In this document: positions 73 through 15,900 of the stretch, in pieces
Layout: every line of letters begins with the position of its first letter
How positions within the stretch are numbered: the first letter of the stretch is position 1
Origin: a virus
Direction: 5' to 3' (one strand)
Virus record (IMG/VR): IMGVR_UViG_3300045836_000072
Span: 1 to 23,975 of that record
Length of the DNA: 23,975 bases
Notes under the pieces: model-generated
Database searches by the model: none
What the model was told of the DNA's origin: nothing
Seen by the model: the letters and a program-made list of their open reading frames with translations, nothing else
Position numbers and translations under genes: made by a program

Positions 73-2265
73 ATGTCAAAGCACCGCCACAGAAAGGCAT
101 TACAACGCGCCACACCAGGGCAAAACATGCCGGGCGGCGCTACGATGTATGTACCTGCACACATGTTGCAATCGATTCTTGGCCAAACCTTCTATGGGAG
201 CAAGGCCAATATTCCTACTCAAAACTCCACAGCATTCAGCCCTGGCACTCCGCTTGCACCTCAATCCATTGTGAATAAGCAGGGCTTTCCAGTCCAGTAT
301 CCGTTCCAGATTGCAGCGAACACATTCGGAATTGACCGTTCGCAGGGCAAGCCCGATATCCCCTCGTTTCAGCAATTGCGCAACCTTGCCAAGTTATACA
401 GTGGCATCACATTGTGCGAGCGTGCATGGTTTGATATGGTGCCTCGCATGCAGTTGAAGATCTCGCTACGTCCTGAGTGTGTCGCGCAAGGTGCGGAAGA
501 GAAGAACTTTCAGAAAGAAATCAGTTTCTTCAAGAACTGGTTTGAAAAACCAGATGGACGCCGCGACATCCACACATGGCTCCGCATGGCACTGCGTGAA
601 CAAACACAAATCGATGAATTGTATCTCTACAAAAATAAAACCAGGGGTGGTAAGTTGCTCGGCTTGCACGTGGTGGCAGGCGACACCATGAAGCCTTTGC
701 TCAATGATTGGGGTGATATTCCACTGCCAAGCGACCCAGAGCCGTATGCCTTTCAGCAATATCCCTGGGGCATTCCTGGGATGCAGTACACACTTGAGCA
801 AATGATCCACTACCAGGAGTCGCCTGCTGCTGACAGCCCCTATGGGCAATCACGTGTTGAGCGTGTCATCATGGAAGTCAATCAGGCGCTCAGAAAAAAA
901 CGCAGAGACTTAGCCATGTTCACGGAAGGCAATATGCCCAGCGGCATTATGGAGGTGCCAGAGAGCAGCAACTGGACGCCTGACCTCATCGACGCATACG
1001 AACAATCCTGGAATGCGCTCATAGCAGGCAATCCACAGCAGCAAGTGCGTGTCAAATTCACCCAACCCGGCATGCGGTTTCAACGCCTGGACAATGGCGA
1101 GATCCTGACCGACTTTGACATGTTCCTCTTGAATATCACCACTGGCTGTTATGGCATGTCGATGCAGGATATTAGCTTCACTGGTGATATCCACAAGAGC
1201 AGTGGCGACTCACAGCAGAACGTGTTGTATCGTCGTACCATTGGCCCATTGGCCCTCGTCTACGGTGCTATCCTCACTGACATCATGGCGAATGACTTTG
1301 ATCCGAGCTTGCAGGGCAATAAGTTGATGGTGAGCTTTGGCGGATTTGAAGAAAGTGAGGATATTGGTGCGCTGGCCAGTGCATATAGCACATTGACCAA
1401 TAGTGGCATTCTGGGATTGACCAATGCTGCCAAGCTTATGAAATTGCCTGAAGATCCCGATGCGCCACATATTGGCCGCGTGATAATAACCAAGTCAGGG
1501 CCAATCTTCCTTGACGATATGGCAAGCGACGAGATGCGCAATGCACAGCAGCAAGCACAATTGGCAGGCTTTCAACTTGCTGCACAAAATCCAGGTGGGC
1601 AGCAAGCAGAGCCAGGGCAAGACGATGAAGAAGGAGAAGATGATGCTGAAGATACGCAAAGTCAAAGCAAGACGAATACAGCGTCGCAACCAAAGGGATC
1701 AGCAAATAAAGCTGCATCTCATGGGAAAAATGACAAAAAAGATACTTCAGACGATGACAATGGAGGAGCTCAGGAAAGAAGTAGTGGCAATGGCAGAAAG
1801 GATGCCATCACTCAATCTGCTGGAGATACTTCGCAATATAAAACTCCAGCAAGAAGTAGTGACAGTGTTCGAGAAATGGCTGGAGACAAAGCCAGACCAG
1901 AAACAAGTAGATCTGGCAATGGCTATGATGCTTCCTCCTTCTCCACTGAGACGCATGATACCAAGGCTCAGCAACGAGCAGACTTTAGACGTTGGCGAGA
2001 CATTGCGCTCAAAGACATCAAATCTGGAAAGCCCATCCGCTCGTTTGCCTCTGATGCCATCGATGCTCGCGAGCATGCCCAGATCACAGAGGCCCTGGCA
2101 CGCTGCACAAATGCCGACGACGTGCGAGCAGTCTTCAAGCGAGCTCAAGAAGGGGATGTAAGTTTTTTCGCAGTGCCCCAAGTGGGGCAAAGCAATGGAG
2201 AGCACCAGACAAAAAGCAGCTTAATCTGGAGAAACGCTTTGCCAACCGGCTCAAAACGTTCATAG
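73..2265 (+). CDS. phage portal protein
   Basis: This 730-residue protein is the portal, the dodecameric ring at the capsid vertex through which DNA is packaged and ejected. The portal core spans roughly residues 80-500. It includes SPYGQSRVERV near 255, the long basic helix that follows it, and NITTGCYGMSMQDISF with DIHKSSGDSQQ near 355-380, which corresponds to the usual 'GVPP.llG' turn and downstream helix of SPP1/HK97-type portals. Residues about 510-640 are a low-complexity D/E/Q/S/K linker. Residues about 637-696 form a helical segment (RRWRDIALKDIKSGK...) common at portal C-termini. The ATG is preceded by GAGG at 58-61. The last 31 residues (after Phe699) follow a slippery site and may be made only by ribosomes that do not shift into the MuF frame. 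The family assignment is firm and the exact subfamily is not. Confidence 0.9.
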   Translation: MSKHRHRKALQRATPGQNMPGGATMYVPAHMLQSILGQTFYGSKANIPTQNSTAFSPGTPLAPQSIVNKQGFPVQYPFQIAANTFGIDRSQGKPDIPSFQQLRNLAKLYSGITLCERAWFDMVPRMQLKISLRPECVAQGAEEKNFQKEISFFKNWFEKPDGRRDIHTWLRMALREQTQIDELYLYKNKTRGGKLLGLHVVAGDTMKPLLNDWGDIPLPSDPEPYAFQQYPWGIPGMQYTLEQMIHYQESPAADSPYGQSRVERVIMEVNQALRKKRRDLAMFTEGNMPSGIMEVPESSNWTPDLIDAYEQSWNALIAGNPQQQVRVKFTQPGMRFQRLDNGEILTDFDMFLLNITTGCYGMSMQDISFTGDIHKSSGDSQQNVLYRRTIGPLALVYGAILTDIMANDFDPSLQGNKLMVSFGGFEESEDIGALASAYSTLTNSGILGLTNAAKLMKLPEDPDAPHIGRVIITKSGPIFLDDMASDEMRNAQQQAQLAGFQLAAQNPGGQQAEPGQDDEEGEDDAEDTQSQSKTNTASQPKGSANKAASHGKNDKKDTSDDDNGGAQERSSGNGRKDAITQSAGDTSQYKTPARSSDSVREMAGDKARPETSRSGNGYDASSFSTETHDTKAQQRADFRRWRDIALKDIKSGKPIRSFASDAIDAREHAQITEALARCTNADDVRAVFKRAQEGDVSFFAVPQVGQSNGEHQTKSSLIWRNALPTGSKRS
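2147..2189 (+). promoter_or_regulatory. programmed -1 ribosomal frameshift signal (portal to MuF)
   Basis: All three parts of a dnaX-like -1 frameshift signal are visible. AAGAAGGGG at 2147-2155 is SD-like and ends 7 bases before the slip site. T TTT TTC at 2163-2169 is an X XXY YYZ heptamer in phase with the portal codons (AGT TTT TTC). A hairpin TGCCCC-AAGT-GGGGCA at 2174-2189 has six perfect pairs and starts four bases after the heptamer. Shifting back by one moves from the portal frame to the MuF frame, which is open without stops from 2169 to 2843. The alternative is a miscounted T run in the assembly. Confidence 0.75.
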
Positions 2266-5769: not shown

Positions 5770-5778
5770 TCATACATA

Positions 5779-5807
5779 TTGCACAATCAATAACTTGAGA
5801 TTATACT
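5779..5807 (+). promoter_or_regulatory. sigma70-like promoter ahead of the non-coding RNA locus
   Basis: TTGCAC at 5779-5784 and TATACT at 5802-5807 are separated by 17 bases, four and five matches to the TTGACA/TATAAT consensus. It lies ten bases after the last accessory gene's stop, and the predicted start near 5814 precedes all RNA structures up to 6246. The surrounding sequence is AT-rich, so a chance match cannot be excluded. Confidence 0.5.
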
Positions 5808-5822
5808 ATATGTGAGTGGATG

Positions 5823-5877
5823 GCTTGCACATGGTTTTCATCAGTTTAACATCGTCCTACACTCGCCATGTGCAGGC
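5823..5877 (+). ncRNA. long stem-loop at the 5' end of the non-coding locus
   Basis: Positions 5823-5834 pair with 5866-5877 in twelve consecutive pairs (one G-T), with a 31-nt loop. It directly follows the predicted transcription start. It may be the first domain of a longer structured RNA. The 74-codon ORF that crosses it has no SD and is not protein-like. Confidence 0.45.
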
Positions 5878-5891
5878 GACAATTTTCACAT

Positions 5892-6000
5892 TGGGTGTTG
5901 CCAGAGTCAGGCCTATTGGTGATCATAGCAAGAACCCTAAGTCAAATACCGCTATGAGGGAAAGGCAAGGGGTCCATCCGTTCGAATCGGATACACCCAT
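5892..6000 (+). ncRNA. tRNA-like structure with an expanded anticodon side
   Basis: A seven-pair acceptor stem (TGGGTGT 5892-5898 with ACACCCA 5993-5999) is followed by exactly two bases, TG, and a four-pair D stem (CCAG/TTGG, one G-T) with an 11-nt loop containing GG. The T arm is perfect: ATCCG-TTCGAAT-CGGAT (5976-5992), immediately before the acceptor strand. In place of a 5/7/5 anticodon arm there is TCATAGC (5923-5929) pairing with GCTATGA (5951-5957) around a 21-nt loop, then 18 unpaired bases. No anticodon can be assigned and no CCA is encoded. It could be a tRNA mimic, a degenerate tRNA or a domain of a larger RNA. Confidence 0.45.
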
Positions 6001-6007
6001 CCCGTGG

Positions 6008-6034
6008 GGTCTCCAAGAGTCGTTGCAAGAGACC
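6008..6034 (+). ncRNA. stem-loop between the tRNA-like fold and the ribozyme
   Basis: GGTCTC (6008-6013) pairs with GAGACC (6029-6034) around a 15-nt loop. It fills the space between the two larger RNA domains and suggests that the whole segment is one structured transcript. Confidence 0.35.
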
Positions 6035-6040
6035 ATCTAG

Positions 6041-6109
6041 CCCTGCATTTTCGGCTGATGAGCGAAAGCGAAACATCGTAAGATGTCCCGTGGAGTGCTC
6101 CCAGCAGGG
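6041..6109 (+). ncRNA. type I hammerhead self-cleaving ribozyme
   Basis: The complete conserved core is present in order. CTGATGA (6055-6061) is followed by stem II GC-GAAA-GC (6062-6069) and then GAAA (6070-6073), whose last A opens stem III ACATC-GTAA-GATGT (6073-6086). C6087 is the cleavage nucleotide of a GTC triplet. CGG (6052-6054) pairs with CCG (6088-6090) next to the core as stem I, and an outer stem I, CCCTGC (6041-6046) with GCAGGG (6104-6109), closes the molecule across internal loops of 5 and 13 nt that could make the usual stem I-stem II tertiary contact. Cleavage is expected between 6087 and 6088. Stem II is only two pairs, which is short, but its GAAA loop is stable. Confidence 0.88.
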
Positions 6110-6149
6110 GAATAACCGAGCACCTAGACGGCTCAACATATTTTTACAA

Positions 6150-6206
6150 GACGACTGATTGATATATCCGGGCTGTAAAGCCTTAAACATAGATATATTC
6201 GGCGTC
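6150..6206 (+). promoter_or_regulatory. covarying RNA leader element, copy A
   Basis: The element folds as GACG/CGTC (6150-6153 with 6203-6206), an internal loop, ATATATC/GATATAT (6162-6168 with 6192-6198), a loop TTAAACAT and an apical GGCT-GTAA-AGCC (6171-6182). Copy B at 14124-14180 aligns without gaps and keeps the loops TGATTG, GTAA, TTAAAYAT and TTCGG while its stem pairs change in compensation. The 3' CGTC is also part of the following terminator stem, so the two folds exclude each other as in an attenuator or riboswitch. Known class not recognised. Confidence 0.65.
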
Positions 6207-6245
6207 TCTGGATCGCATTGTAAGCGGTTCGGAGGCGCTTTTTTT
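6202..6245 (+). terminator. intrinsic terminator-like hairpin ahead of the prohead protease gene
   Basis: GCGTCTC (6202-6208) pairs with GAGGCGC (6232-6238), with inner pairing around CGC/GCG (6214-6216, 6224-6226), followed directly by seven T. The SD of the protease gene begins three bases after the T run, so the hairpin ends the leader rather than an upstream operon alone. Confidence 0.7.
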
Positions 6246-6264
6246 ATTGAGGAGTGAGCGTTAT

Positions 6265-7830
6265 ATGGAATTATTCGAGATCTTCCCAGAAGGCGCTGAG
6301 GAGCTGGGCATACAACGCTCACTCTCTAAAGCTGAGCGTGACGCCATTGATGATGAAGACTTTGCGTGGCCAGAAGAGCACAAGTATCCAATCAACACAC
6401 AGGCTCATCTTGATGCTGCTGCAAAGCTGATTGGTCGCGCTCCTGAAGCTGAGCAGGCCAAAATTAAGGCTCGTGCAATCCGCATTGCAAAGCGCAAAGG
6501 CTTTACTCTGCCAGAGTCCTGGCAAGAGGATGAGGGTAAAGACGACAAGAAAGAAGAGCGTGCTGTCTCTGCTGCTGCAACCCCTGCTGCAAACCTGTCC
6601 ATGTACTTCCCGATTGTGCGCACTGATGCAGACCAGTGGATAGTGGAAGGGCAGGCCACAAGCGAGGCCATAGACTCATACGGCACGATCTTTGAGTATG
6701 AGAGCAGCAAGAAAGCCTTTCAAGAGTGGATCAAGCGTGGCAACATTCGTGAGCAGCATGATCCACGCAAGGCCGTAGGCAAGGCCCTGGCAGTCGAATT
6801 TGATGATGTCAATAGAGCCATTTACGTGCGTGCCAGGATCTCAAAAGGTGCTCGTGACACGTGGGAAAAGATCTTAGACGGCACACTTTCAGGCTTCTCT
6901 ATCGGTGTTCCTGGTGACGCCAAAGTCAAATATGTGGAGCGTGGCAATAACAAGCGCGTCCCGATGTACTATGACCATCGTTTGGCTGAATTGTCCGTTG
7001 TTGATGCGCCTGGCTCTCCTAATTGCGACATGCGCCCTGTGGTCAGGGCAGACGGCTCATTCACTGATCTCATTGACGATGTGACAGAGGAAGAGACGAC
7101 CCCAGAACCTGCACAGCCCGAACAGATTGAGCGTGCTGGTGCGCGTGTCTCAACCGACACAAAGAGCAAGATGCACACATCCATTGGACACGCGTTGCAC
7201 TCAGTTGTTGGTCAAATGCAGAATTGTGGTTGTGAGGACTGCAGTGCCGCCATGAAGATGATTGACCCTGACAATGATGGTGACATCGATCTTGGTGGCT
7301 ACGATGACCCAGACCACGACTGGCAAGAACTGTACAACCAATCCTCAAATGATGAGGAGATGGAGCGCAAAATCTCAGGAATGATTGAGCGCGCGCTTCA
7401 ACCTGTTTTCGCAAGATTCCAAGGCATAGCCGGTACCCTTGCAAGGGTCAACGGTGGTGCCTCTTTACATACATCAACCCCATCAATCGAGACGATTGTA
7501 TCCGGTGCGATCACACGCGCTGTGGAAGCGGCTACTACTGCCCATGCTTCAAGCCTGACTGAAGTACGCGCTGATTTGTCAGCGGTAAAAGAGCAGGTTG
7601 GACGAATTGCAGACACGCCCATGCCTGGTGCCCCGATTATGAACGCTGGTGCAATGCCTCGCCCAACAGTCGAAAAGCGACTGGCAACCGATCCATATCA
7701 AGCCCATCCACGCTCTGGTAGCTCTGTGTATGACGCACTTGCTCGCATGAGTGAAGCCGGGATGCTTGATACCCCTGAAAGACAAGCAGATGCTATTGCC
7801 GCTGGCTACATAGCACAGCGCAGAGGATAA
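6265..7830 (+). CDS. prohead protease with N-terminal DUF6582-like and C-terminal scaffold-like regions
   Basis: I start at ATG 6265 (521 residues), with GAGGAG at 6248-6253 as SD; the TTG at 6247 overlaps the SD. Residues about 25-85 (FAWPEEHKYPINTQAHLDAA ... IRIAKRKGF) resemble the DUF6582 module found on phage proteases. Residues about 115-265 are an HK97/XkdF-type prohead protease: EGQATSEAIDSYGTIF, then REQHD with candidate catalytic His165, GTLSGFSIG with candidate Ser212, and LAELSVVDAPGSPNCD. The remaining 250 residues are acidic, Ala-rich and helical, as expected for a scaffolding region cleaved during capsid maturation. The major capsid gene follows after six bases. Confidence 0.85.
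   Translation: MELFEIFPEGAEELGIQRSLSKAERDAIDDEDFAWPEEHKYPINTQAHLDAAAKLIGRAPEAEQAKIKARAIRIAKRKGFTLPESWQEDEGKDDKKEERAVSAAATPAANLSMYFPIVRTDADQWIVEGQATSEAIDSYGTIFEYESSKKAFQEWIKRGNIREQHDPRKAVGKALAVEFDDVNRAIYVRARISKGARDTWEKILDGTLSGFSIGVPGDAKVKYVERGNNKRVPMYYDHRLAELSVVDAPGSPNCDMRPVVRADGSFTDLIDDVTEEETTPEPAQPEQIERAGARVSTDTKSKMHTSIGHALHSVVGQMQNCGCEDCSAAMKMIDPDNDGDIDLGGYDDPDHDWQELYNQSSNDEEMERKISGMIERALQPVFARFQGIAGTLARVNGGASLHTSTPSIETIVSGAITRAVEAATTAHASSLTEVRADLSAVKEQVGRIADTPMPGAPIMNAGAMPRPTVEKRLATDPYQAHPRSGSSVYDALARMSEAGMLDTPERQADAIAAGYIAQRRG
7435..7448. repeat. CCCTTGCAAGGG palindrome, inside protease gene
   Basis: ACCCTTGCAAGGGT is a perfect 14-bp palindrome. It is read as TLARV in the scaffold-like region. 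Confidence 0.8.
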
Positions 7831-14096: not shown

Positions 14097-14123
14097 TAGT
14101 ACTTACTAACTGAATACACATTA

Positions 14124-14180
14124 GACGTTTGATTGATATTCTCGGCTCGTAAGAGCTTAAATATGAGCATATTCGGCGTC
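14124..14180 (+). promoter_or_regulatory. covarying RNA leader element, copy B
   Basis: This aligns gap-free with copy A over 63 bases. The closing GACG/CGTC (14124-14127, 14177-14180) and the loops GTAA and TTAAATAT are kept. The apical stem is GCTC/GAGC (14145-14148, 14153-14156) instead of GGCT/AGCC, and the middle stem pairs ATATTCTC with GAGCATAT (one mismatch). At least five stem positions change on both sides and stay paired. It ends in the terminator at 14175-14217, 19 bases before the tail-tube start. Confidence 0.65.
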
Positions 14181-14217
14181 TCTGGACCACTTTCTTTGTG
14201 GCCTGGAGACGCCTTTT
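14175..14217 (+). terminator. intrinsic terminator-like hairpin ahead of the major tail protein gene
   Basis: GGCGTCTC (14175-14182) pairs perfectly with GAGACGCC (14206-14213), with an inner CCAC/GTGG stem (14187-14190, 14198-14201), then TTTT. The SD AAGGAGAG starts at 14221. As at 6202-6245, its left arm overlaps the strand needed to close the leader element. Confidence 0.7.
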
Positions 14218-14235
14218 GTTAAGGAGAGATTGAAA

Positions 14236-15900
14236 ATGCCAGTCATCACCGGCGTTCAGGGTTACAGTGGCCTAAGCCAACAAACTCGCTTGGTCCTTGA
14301 GCCTACAGCAGGGGAGCAGGTGCTCTTAGCCCAGACAGCGGGGGCTGGCACCATGAGTCTCACAACTCAACCAAACACGCTCTCACCAACCACAGGCATG
14401 GCCCTGCACTTTTACGTGATCGGCAATACTGGAGCTGGTTCCATCACGATTGCAGGCACTAATCCGAGCGGTGGAAGCTTCACATCGATCACATACCACG
14501 TGCCAGCCGCGCCGCAAAATAATCAAGGATATACCGAATTCACGACCAAAGAGGCATTTGCAACCGTCAACGCATCGGGTATCACACTCACCAGCCTCAC
14601 CCCGTGTCAGATTATCGTGTTCGGTAGCTATTGTGGAAAATACTTGATCCCCATCACAGCCGATGCTGAGGAGAAGATTGCACACTTCAGCCCACAAGAC
14701 AAGCGTGGCATCTTATTCAAAAACCTTCGTGTCACCCAGATCACAAAGGGCGCATCACTGGACAAGTTTGATGCGGCACTGTATCCAGATAGCCTGTGGG
14801 CTCCGTATATGCTGATTGGCAATACGCCAACCGTTACCACAGTACCTGCCTCACCGACTGTCCTGCTGGCTTCCACTGCCATTGCGGCAACCATGACGCT
14901 CACATCAGGCCCTGCGGCTCCTGGTGAGTTTTTGGTCTTTACCATCACATCAAACACTGCATCGGGCACGATTGTGGTTGGTGGCACCGATCAATACGGC
15001 AATCCGTACGGCTCTACTGAGACCATTACGTTTACCAATGCTGCATCGCAGACGGTGTATAGTTCACGCCGCTACAGTGTGGTCAACAATGGCGGCGCAA
15101 ACAAGATTGCCACGACGGGTGGCACTGGTGCAAGTATCGCAGTCGGTGGCGTGTACGCCTGGCAATACGCGTGGACGTATGACGGGCTTAACAACACGAA
15201 TATCTACACTGCAAGCCTGGAAATCTTCAATGGTGTGTTCGGTTACAAGCTCCCCTACACCTTCTTTTCAGAAGGTACATTCTCCTGGGAGAAAGAGAAA
15301 GAGATCTCTTTTGCAGGCAAGGGAGAGGCTCAGGACTACCTTGTTGTGGGCGATCCTACCTCAACAACTGTTGGCACAAACCCATTCGCCACGCTTTCAC
15401 AGCCATCGTCAATCCCGATGGTCTCCTGGCCAGCGTCGTTCTATATTGATGCAGGCAATGGCGGCGTGCCTTTGACCACGCAAGATGGCAGCCTCAAATC
15501 ATTCAAAATCCAGATCTCGACAGGTCGCAAGCCGTTCTATACTGGCGACGCCTTCCAACGGTGGAACAACATTGCGATTGAGAGCGAGCCCGATATTGCG
15601 CTTGATGCAACAATTGTCGTTCCAAACTACCAGAACTACATCAACTACTTCAAGCCTAACACGCCTTTAATCTTCGGTGCCACTTTCCAAGGCAACTTCC
15701 TGGGCACGATCAGCAGCACAACTTACTATGAGCAAATTCAATGGATCGTCCCCGCAAAGATCGATTCTTGGAAAACGGATATGTCTAAAAATCCCGTAGA
15801 AGGGACTTTAAAACTGTTAAGCGAATATTCGTTCGCAAATCTTGGATATGCATATAAAACGATATGGATCGCTCAGCAACCGCCTGTATACACTGCTTAG
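14236..15900 (+). CDS. major tail (tube) protein with Ig-like domains
   Basis: ATG 14236 follows AAGGAGAG by seven bases; the TTG at 14230 is too close to the SD. The 554-residue protein has tube-protein features after residue 320: NIYTASLEIFNGVFGYKLPY, TFSWEKEKEISFAGKGEAQD, LKSFKIQISTGRKPFYTGD and DTYYEQ-like strands near the end. Residues about 20-125 and 198-305 are Gly/Thr-rich beta regions (TMSLTTQPNTLSPTTGMALH; MTLTSGPAAPGEFLVFTITS) that look like Ig-type decorations. It is followed by the chaperone pair and tape measure, the standard order for long non-contractile tails. Confidence 0.75.
   Translation: MPVITGVQGYSGLSQQTRLVLEPTAGEQVLLAQTAGAGTMSLTTQPNTLSPTTGMALHFYVIGNTGAGSITIAGTNPSGGSFTSITYHVPAAPQNNQGYTEFTTKEAFATVNASGITLTSLTPCQIIVFGSYCGKYLIPITADAEEKIAHFSPQDKRGILFKNLRVTQITKGASLDKFDAALYPDSLWAPYMLIGNTPTVTTVPASPTVLLASTAIAATMTLTSGPAAPGEFLVFTITSNTASGTIVVGGTDQYGNPYGSTETITFTNAASQTVYSSRRYSVVNNGGANKIATTGGTGASIAVGGVYAWQYAWTYDGLNNTNIYTASLEIFNGVFGYKLPYTFFSEGTFSWEKEKEISFAGKGEAQDYLVVGDPTSTTVGTNPFATLSQPSSIPMVSWPASFYIDAGNGGVPLTTQDGSLKSFKIQISTGRKPFYTGDAFQRWNNIAIESEPDIALDATIVVPNYQNYINYFKPNTPLIFGATFQGNFLGTISSTTYYEQIQWIVPAKIDSWKTDMSKNPVEGTLKLLSEYSFANLGYAYKTIWIAQQPPVYTA

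Follow-up and report, generated by a model that had tools for sequence, protein, structure and literature searches.

A double-pseudoknot phage RNA with an exchangeable hammerhead tip: apparently a new RNA class in tailed phages

Introduction

Type I hammerhead ribozymes, which have the core CUGAUGA/GAAA/UH and an open stem I, are found in intergenic regions of phages (PMC3088659; Rfam clan CL00010); a stem II of 2 bp is common among natural examples and a swap to U3-A8 in the core is active (PMC3088659). The ROOL and GOLLD RNAs are structured RNAs of phages and prophages with unknown function, often located near tRNA islands, and in GOLLD tRNAs are possible in the linker (PMC12286853). HDV-like theta ribozymes are self-cleaving RNAs positioned downstream of phage tRNAs (PMC10879173), and the permuted two-piece tmRNA is an example of a functional RNA in circularly permuted and nicked forms (PMC10085705).

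The locus described here has features in common with each of these systems. Its ribozyme is an intergenic type I hammerhead with a 2-bp stem II, but one that not every relative has: it occupies a stem tip of a conserved double-pseudoknot RNA, whose pseudoknots lie outside the ribozyme and are kept where the ribozyme is missing. In contrast to ROOL and GOLLD the family is much smaller (a core of ~100 nt), has another fold, contains a ribozyme and has no Rfam match to either. Unlike theta ribozymes, the hammerhead has its predicted cut a long way from the tRNA end, within a folded RNA that is also found with no ribozyme at all; a theta (HDV-like) identity was rejected, with a different helix order, a catalytic core that is that of a hammerhead and no Rfam match of HDV type. 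No tmRNA features are detected at the locus by ARAGORN or Rfam, and, unlike in tmRNA, the break would be the work of a ribozyme within the RNA, or there is none. Three further candidates were also set aside: PaP3 and Bcep176, phages with hammerheads that PMC3088659 had tested, are not family members; the non-circular hammerhead permutations of PMC10085705 are a different phenomenon; and the Pas sRNAs of E. coli prophages (PMC13192938) are described with no mention of a ribozyme or pseudoknot. No Rfam 15 family matches the double-pseudoknot RNA at gathering or permissive thresholds, and a literature search found no description of it, an earlier report in journals outside the search being possible. 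The ribozyme is of a known kind, and by comparison the RNA class that surrounds it appears to be new.

Organization of the RNA locus

The window analysed is a 23,975-nt IMG/VR virus fragment (IMGVR_UViG_3300045836_000072, positions 1 to 23,975), which encodes a portal protein (73-2265), a prohead-protease-like protein (ATG 6265 to 7830) and more large ORFs downstream. The RNA locus is the ~500-nt gap 5′ of the protease gene and comprises the following elements:

5780-5807, + strand: weak match to a sigma70-like promoter (TGCACA-16-TATACT), its count within chance
5810-5891, + strand: long imperfect hairpin, a 12-bp stem (5823-5834/5866-5877) plus an outer stem, judged by fold z-score
5892-5999, + strand: type II tRNA-like fold, with acceptor 5892-5898/5993-5999, T arm 5976-5992 and a stem 5923-5929/5951-5957
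6003-6138, + strand: double-pseudoknot RNA with a hammerhead tip, matched at 110 bits (E=3e-29) by covariance model R1 built without the window
6156-6246, + strand: separate leader element and terminator, directly 5′ of the protease start ATG 6265

As a whole the locus folds at z=-2.9 in a nested fold, to which pseudoknots are invisible. The original prediction had placed here a promoter followed by a row of separate domains (a 12-pair stem-loop, a tRNA-like fold, a short stem-loop, a hammerhead and a terminator-ending leader). The 12-bp stem is indeed present and closes a 31-nt loop within a longer imperfect hairpin; the region 5808-5893 folds at z=-3.2, with none of 200 shuffles equally good, and no relatives of the hairpin 5810-5891 were found. 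The promoter did not hold up, as it scores 9/12 and two such sites were found where 1.5 +/- 1.2 are expected. An ORF at 5816-6040 (74 aa), which overlaps the tRNA-like fold and hairpin A (see below), has no support as a gene. Rfam 15 returned no family above its threshold on the whole window, locus-wide BLAST against phages and plasmids gave no matches, and for the locus as a whole no match supported group I or II introns, tmRNA, Y RNA or a theta ribozyme.

The leader element consists of a GATATAT-type stem around a GGCU-GUAA-AGCC hairpin, followed by a 16-bp terminator (6201-6239) with a T run extending to 6245; the region 6150-6246 folds at z=-5.2. The terminator of the predicted leader stands, but nt 6088-6138, assigned to the same leader, are the 3′ half of the hammerhead-bearing RNA. 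A second copy, delimited as 14121-14217 or 14130-14217, is located before a tail gene (14230-15900). The repeated element, comprising the GATAT stem, the GUAA hairpin and the CGGCGTCTCTGGA terminator, may serve the structural genes as a shared site of attenuation or antitermination. A related terminator follows an unusual tRNA in the contig L130 (around 1290-1450, minus strand), ahead of another ORF.

The double-pseudoknot RNA

The RNA begins 3 nt past the acceptor end of the tRNA-like fold and is made up of the following parts:

6003-6008, + strand: conserved CGUGGG; in relatives that no tRNA abuts, the inner GUG belongs to closing helix P0
6008-6034, + strand: hairpin A (6008-6013/6029-6034), its loop (6014-6028) carrying the 5′ strand of pseudoknot 2
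6017-6023, + strand: pseudoknot 2 5′ strand GAGUCGU, pairing with 6128-6134
6035-6038, + strand: conserved AUCU linking hairpin A and stem I, from family alignments
6041-6046, + strand: stem I 5′ strand CCCUGC, pairing with 6104-6109
6052-6090, + strand: type I hammerhead in the stem I tip, cleavage 6087^6088
6052-6054/6088-6090, + strand: hammerhead inner stem I, followed by CUGAUGA (6055-6061)
6062-6063/6068-6069, + strand: hammerhead stem II, followed by GAAA (6070-6073)
6073-6077/6082-6086, + strand: hammerhead stem III, cut at UC^C
6092-6100, + strand: GGA and pseudoknot 1 5′ strand GUGCUC (6095-6100), pairing with 6118-6123
6104-6124, + strand: stem I 3′ strand (6104-6109), GAAUAAC (6110-6116), pseudoknot 1 3′ strand GAGCAC (6118-6123) and C6124
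6128-6134, + strand: pseudoknot 2 3′ strand ACGGCUC, in a run of at least 6 bp in 88/90 members

All of the family's elements occur in order in the window (CGUGGG, hairpin A, AUCU, stem I, GGA with pseudoknot 1, GAAUAAC, the second strand of pseudoknot 1, ACC and the second strand of pseudoknot 2), and the four helices are all present, with 6/6 pairs in pseudoknot 1. Family comparison indicates that the 'short stem-loop', the hammerhead and some 47 nt at the start of the 'leader' are one RNA with two pseudoknots, a single structure at 6003-6138 that the earlier domain order had split into three; the short stem-loop exists (6008-6034) as hairpin A of this RNA rather than as a separate unit. As shown by covariation, one predicted pseudoknot joins the stem I loop with the 3′ side and the other joins the hairpin A loop with the 3′ tail, and the ~100-nt core is almost certainly composed of hairpin A, stem I and these two pseudoknots.

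The family was reached through a 20-mer of the hammerhead core, which occurs in one other IMG/VR contig, L132. The likeness between the window and L132 exceeds the ribozyme, comprising CGTGGG and a hairpin upstream and GGAGT, GAATAAC and ACC downstream. A first pattern derived from this comparison added L134 and L141, and full covariation is seen in the first four members (GTGCTC/GAGCAC, GTCTCC/GGAGAC, GTTCCC/GGGAAC and GTGGCA/TGCCAC); BLAST with the L134 RNA reached named phages. The final pattern, GGAGT-N13-GAATAACNGNNNACC, which represents the 3′ half, matches at least 119 IMG/VR stretches, where roughly 28 are expected by chance assuming a collection of ~60 Gb, and the real test is covariation. 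Of the six pseudoknot 1 pairs, the outer two were fixed by the pattern (GU/AC) and the remainder were free; all six are formed in 105/107 pattern matches among the collected loci.

In a fixed-offset parse of the 90 members with standard order, paired cells make up 98% in hairpin A, 98% in stem I and 100% in pseudoknot 1, compared with 68, 70 and 77%, respectively, when partners are shuffled in the same parse; the pseudoknot 2 run of at least 6 bp is retained in ∼26/90 with shuffled partners. Alignment of the 41 hammerhead members gives 99.2% of cells paired and a covariation score of 0.73 (0.17 shuffled), and that of 19 hammerhead-less members 99.7% and 0.688 (0.185 shuffled); sliding the strands reduces pairing in the alignments to 30-45%. 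Covariance model R1, built from the 41 hammerhead members with the window left out, finds the window at 6003-6138 with the score given above and also recovers the held-out L134, L141 and L144 and the hammerhead-less L151. It gave no convincing match in PaP3, Bcep176 or the phages related to the window. The proposal of a dedicated phage non-coding RNA with a hammerhead is thus well supported by the family covariation and the covariance model, and the family is apparently spread over many unrelated tailed phages.

The hammerhead and the exchangeable stem I tip

The predicted hammerhead was confirmed as a complete type I motif at 6052-6090, with the cleavage position at 6087^6088, the core CUGAUGA/GAAA/UC^C and stems I, II and III of 3 (plus an outer 6), 2 and 5 bp. 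A descriptor specifying the core and minimum stems of 3 (I), 2 (II) and 4 bp (III) matched this site alone in the window and 114 comparison loci. The best Rfam hammerhead match at the window is HH9 with 16.2 bits (cut-off 52); the sibling L193, which has a textbook core, is also missed by the Rfam hammerhead models, so these models do not cover hammerheads of such form. A strict parser accepted 42 hammerheads, of which 41 have C-G at positions 3 and 8 and one has U-A, with no mixed C-A or U-G; the parser admits only C/U at position 3 and G/A at position 8, and the absence of other bases is therefore no evidence.

Stem I ends in a hammerhead-like core in 64 of the 90 members, in a loop of 12 nt or less in 19 and in something else in seven, frequencies that are biased by pattern-based collection, which also leaves out off-pattern variants; the ∼20% without a hammerhead may include tips too degenerate for recognition. 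Circularly permuted members (L142, L146, L186, L229, L234, L254 and the E. coli loci examined) have carriers that include Enterobacter phage SDFMU_EhYP, Pectobacterium phages and the E. coli copies. In these the hammerhead comes first, followed by GGAG..ACC, a hairpin that connects the former ends, CGTGGG, hairpin A, AUCU and the stem I 5′ strand. By comparison of the members, the stem I tip is shown to be exchangeable, being a predicted short loop, a hammerhead or, in permuted members, the site of the RNA's two ends. It is mainly because the tip is closed, self-cut or the site of the ends that the hammerhead is read as making a break in a folded RNA and not as a transcript terminator; that ∼20% of relatives keep the fold without it means that cleavage cannot be the core purpose.

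Permuted copies in L142, L229, L254, L267 and L269 start just 3′ of a hairpin resembling an intrinsic terminator, with a T run. These hairpins may be a trace of the mode of expression or insertion.

tRNAs and the closing helix

The predicted tRNA-like fold is present at 5892-5999, with a 7-bp acceptor (TGGGTGT/ACACCCA) and a perfect T arm (ATCCG-TTCGAAT-CGGAT, a 5-bp T stem with a TTCGAAT loop), although its fold energy is ordinary (z=-1.1). At the position of the anticodon arm a 7-bp stem closes a 21-nt loop instead of the 7-nt anticodon loop with U33 of a tRNA, and neither ARAGORN nor Rfam calls the fold; it is for these reasons termed tRNA-like, and it is predicted not to decode. A homologue with the same loop motif (AAGAAC..AATACC), likewise upstream of a protease gene, was found at 6031-6130 of L004, a related phage fragment with portal and protease 62 and 56% identical to those of the window. 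Loop-motif pattern scans of IMG/VR and GTDB yielded L004 alone, other matches being read as coding or chance. The search for the locus in related phages thus recovered a homologue of the tRNA-like fold but not the double-pseudoknot RNA, which is absent from the window's phage relatives; those identified via protease and portal have other tRNAs or none at the same place. Since these relatives lack the RNA, it is not essential to the window's phage group.

Unusual tRNAs occur in the related phage contigs L127, L128, L129 and L130 (contigs of L121, L119, L004 and L006, respectively). The anticodon regions of those in L127, L129 and L130 are larger by about 25-35 nt; the L128 tRNA has an anticodon loop of normal length that lacks U33. 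Decoding by the odd tRNAs of the window and its relatives is unlikely as they stand, and the enlarged anticodon regions may represent small introns, removed by splicing, or non-decoding tRNA scaffolds.

An ARAGORN tRNA lies within 500 nt of 31/105 family members, compared with 8.9% of random positions in the same loci (p=5e-9, neighbouring positions not being fully independent), and the link is clear for no more than about 30% of the family. phiGD24-3 and similar mycobacterial prophages have the RNA between two tRNA genes, directly after tRNA-Ser and a short way ahead of tRNA-Trp; the Gaia copy comes after a short tRNA-like gene that is annotated as tRNA-Ser, and in L141 the RNA lies within an island of 22 tRNAs. 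In 10 members (nine by script, L145 by eye) CGTGGG lies 2-4 nt beyond the end of a T arm and acceptor; ARAGORN calls the abutting tRNA in four of these (L143, L163, L177 and L245) and makes no call in the other six, which include the window, Gaia (L144) and Karkharias (L145). An outer helix P0 with a run of at least 8 bp is found in 47/82 other members and in 0/10 tRNA-abutting members (p=0.0004). The comparison shows that the base of the RNA is closed either by a predicted P0 or, as in the window, by the 3′ end of an abutting tRNA or tRNA-like RNA without P0, and the simplest reading is that such an end can replace P0. The abutting tRNA-like RNA of L246 (10102 and upstream) is Leu-like, with a variable region enlarged to 115 nt.

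Distribution and neighbouring genes

Phages with relatives of the RNA include those of mycobacteria, Arthrobacter, Pectobacterium and Enterobacter, and among complete E. coli genomes 15/5,426 carry the element. Three E. coli copies were viewed, all in prophages, two between Q and holin in lambdoid prophages and one between portal and terminase. Neighbouring genes across the family are diverse (holins, HNH endonucleases, scaffold, tail tube, terminase small subunit and the Q antiterminator) and include no recurrent partner, the commonest, HNH endonucleases and holins, being seen 2-3 times each. By crude ORF tiling the next downstream ORF is on the opposite strand in 39/99, and together with the diversity of flanking genes this argues against a cis-acting leader.

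In L256 a copy of the RNA in its hammerhead form (450-593) is followed at a distance of ∼25 nt by the start of an rtcB RNA ligase gene (618-1772). Including L212, L162 and L191, rtcB is found in 4/105 family loci and 0/168 others (p=0.02, uncorrected), the family loci being fragments, and the association is suggestive only.

Small ORFs annotated as 'hypothetical protein' lie over or at the edge of the RNA in Pectobacterium phage Pappous (L146, 2497-2613) and in Gaia (L144, 2546-2839, gene 147), and are probably misannotations.

Discussion

Overall, the locus is best explained, with reasonable probability, by an autonomous, self-nicked structural phage RNA at 6003-6138. Hammerhead cleavage leaves a 2′,3′-cyclic phosphate and a 5′-OH, and by analogy with this established chemistry the window's ribozyme would very likely cut at 6087^6088 during transcription, giving these ends. 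The two halves would probably stay together through stem I and both pseudoknots, and the nicked RNA would remain joined to the tRNA-like domain. Like ROOL and GOLLD, it would then be produced in the course of phage development as an RNA in its own right, not as a leader of the protease gene. Action in trans, to which we give an even chance, is suggested by flanking ORFs in either orientation, by the variety of neighbouring genes and by the ROOL and GOLLD parallel (PMC12286853). Within the window, the promoter is within chance and the terminator precedes the protease gene, both of which count against the preferred explanation, as do the absence of the RNA from the window's phage relatives, the limited share of members with a clear tRNA link and the 2-bp stem II, although stems this short are common in natural hammerheads (PMC3088659).

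The main rival to trans action is a cis processing role, in which the hammerhead would free a tRNA-like precursor from the capsid-operon mRNA and the pseudoknots would guard the new ends from nucleases. Such a module would fit the window, with the tRNA-like fold directly upstream and the protease gene downstream, as well as the direct tRNA fusions of 10 members and the location between Q and holin in two of the E. coli prophages examined, and theta ribozymes have been proposed to trim phage tRNA trailers (PMC10879173). Against it, the cut falls ∼90 nt from the tRNA end rather than at it, stem I and both pseudoknots bridge the cleavage site, about 20% of members share the fold without a hammerhead, and the orientation to the next ORF is mixed; we regard the cis role as unlikely. 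Less likely still, and distinctly doubtful, is that an RtcB-type ligase rejoins or circularises the self-nicked RNA. RtcB accepts the ends that a hammerhead makes, and the L256 arrangement and the excess of rtcB in family loci point in this direction, but most loci, though fragments, show no rtcB, a phage rtcB could rather repair tRNAs cut by host nucleases, and hammerhead-less members need no ligation. The original prediction of a functional ∼270-nt RNA (5814-6087) with a ribozyme-made 3′ end and a mere leader beyond it, although right about the cleavage site at 6087, is very improbable, as the conserved fold spans the cut and needs nt 6088-6138, among the family's most conserved parts. The cut lies in a stem tip that three helices span, which makes release of a free product of this kind unlikely; a 6-bp stem I, a 6-bp pseudoknot 1 and a 7-bp pseudoknot 2 join the two sides, so cleavage should nick the folded RNA.

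The self-nicked RNA would belong to an undescribed, widespread class of phage RNA whose tip is closed, hammerhead-cut or permuted, whose closing helix may be replaced by a tRNA or tRNA-like RNA, and which would act in two pieces and in trans during phage development, a full description that is about evenly poised between holding and failing. The new class is supported by comparison of many distinct members with near-perfect covariation, and its carriers in culturable hosts (E. coli prophages, the M. smegmatis phage Gaia, and Arthrobacter and Pectobacterium phages) make its fold, cleavage and function directly testable. Ribozyme, tRNA-like RNAs and the tRNA islands of phages come together in this one element. 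To our knowledge, the function of phage hammerheads has been open since their discovery in prophages; the family suggests that, for at least some of them, the role may be to make or replace a break in a larger structured RNA and not to trim transcripts.
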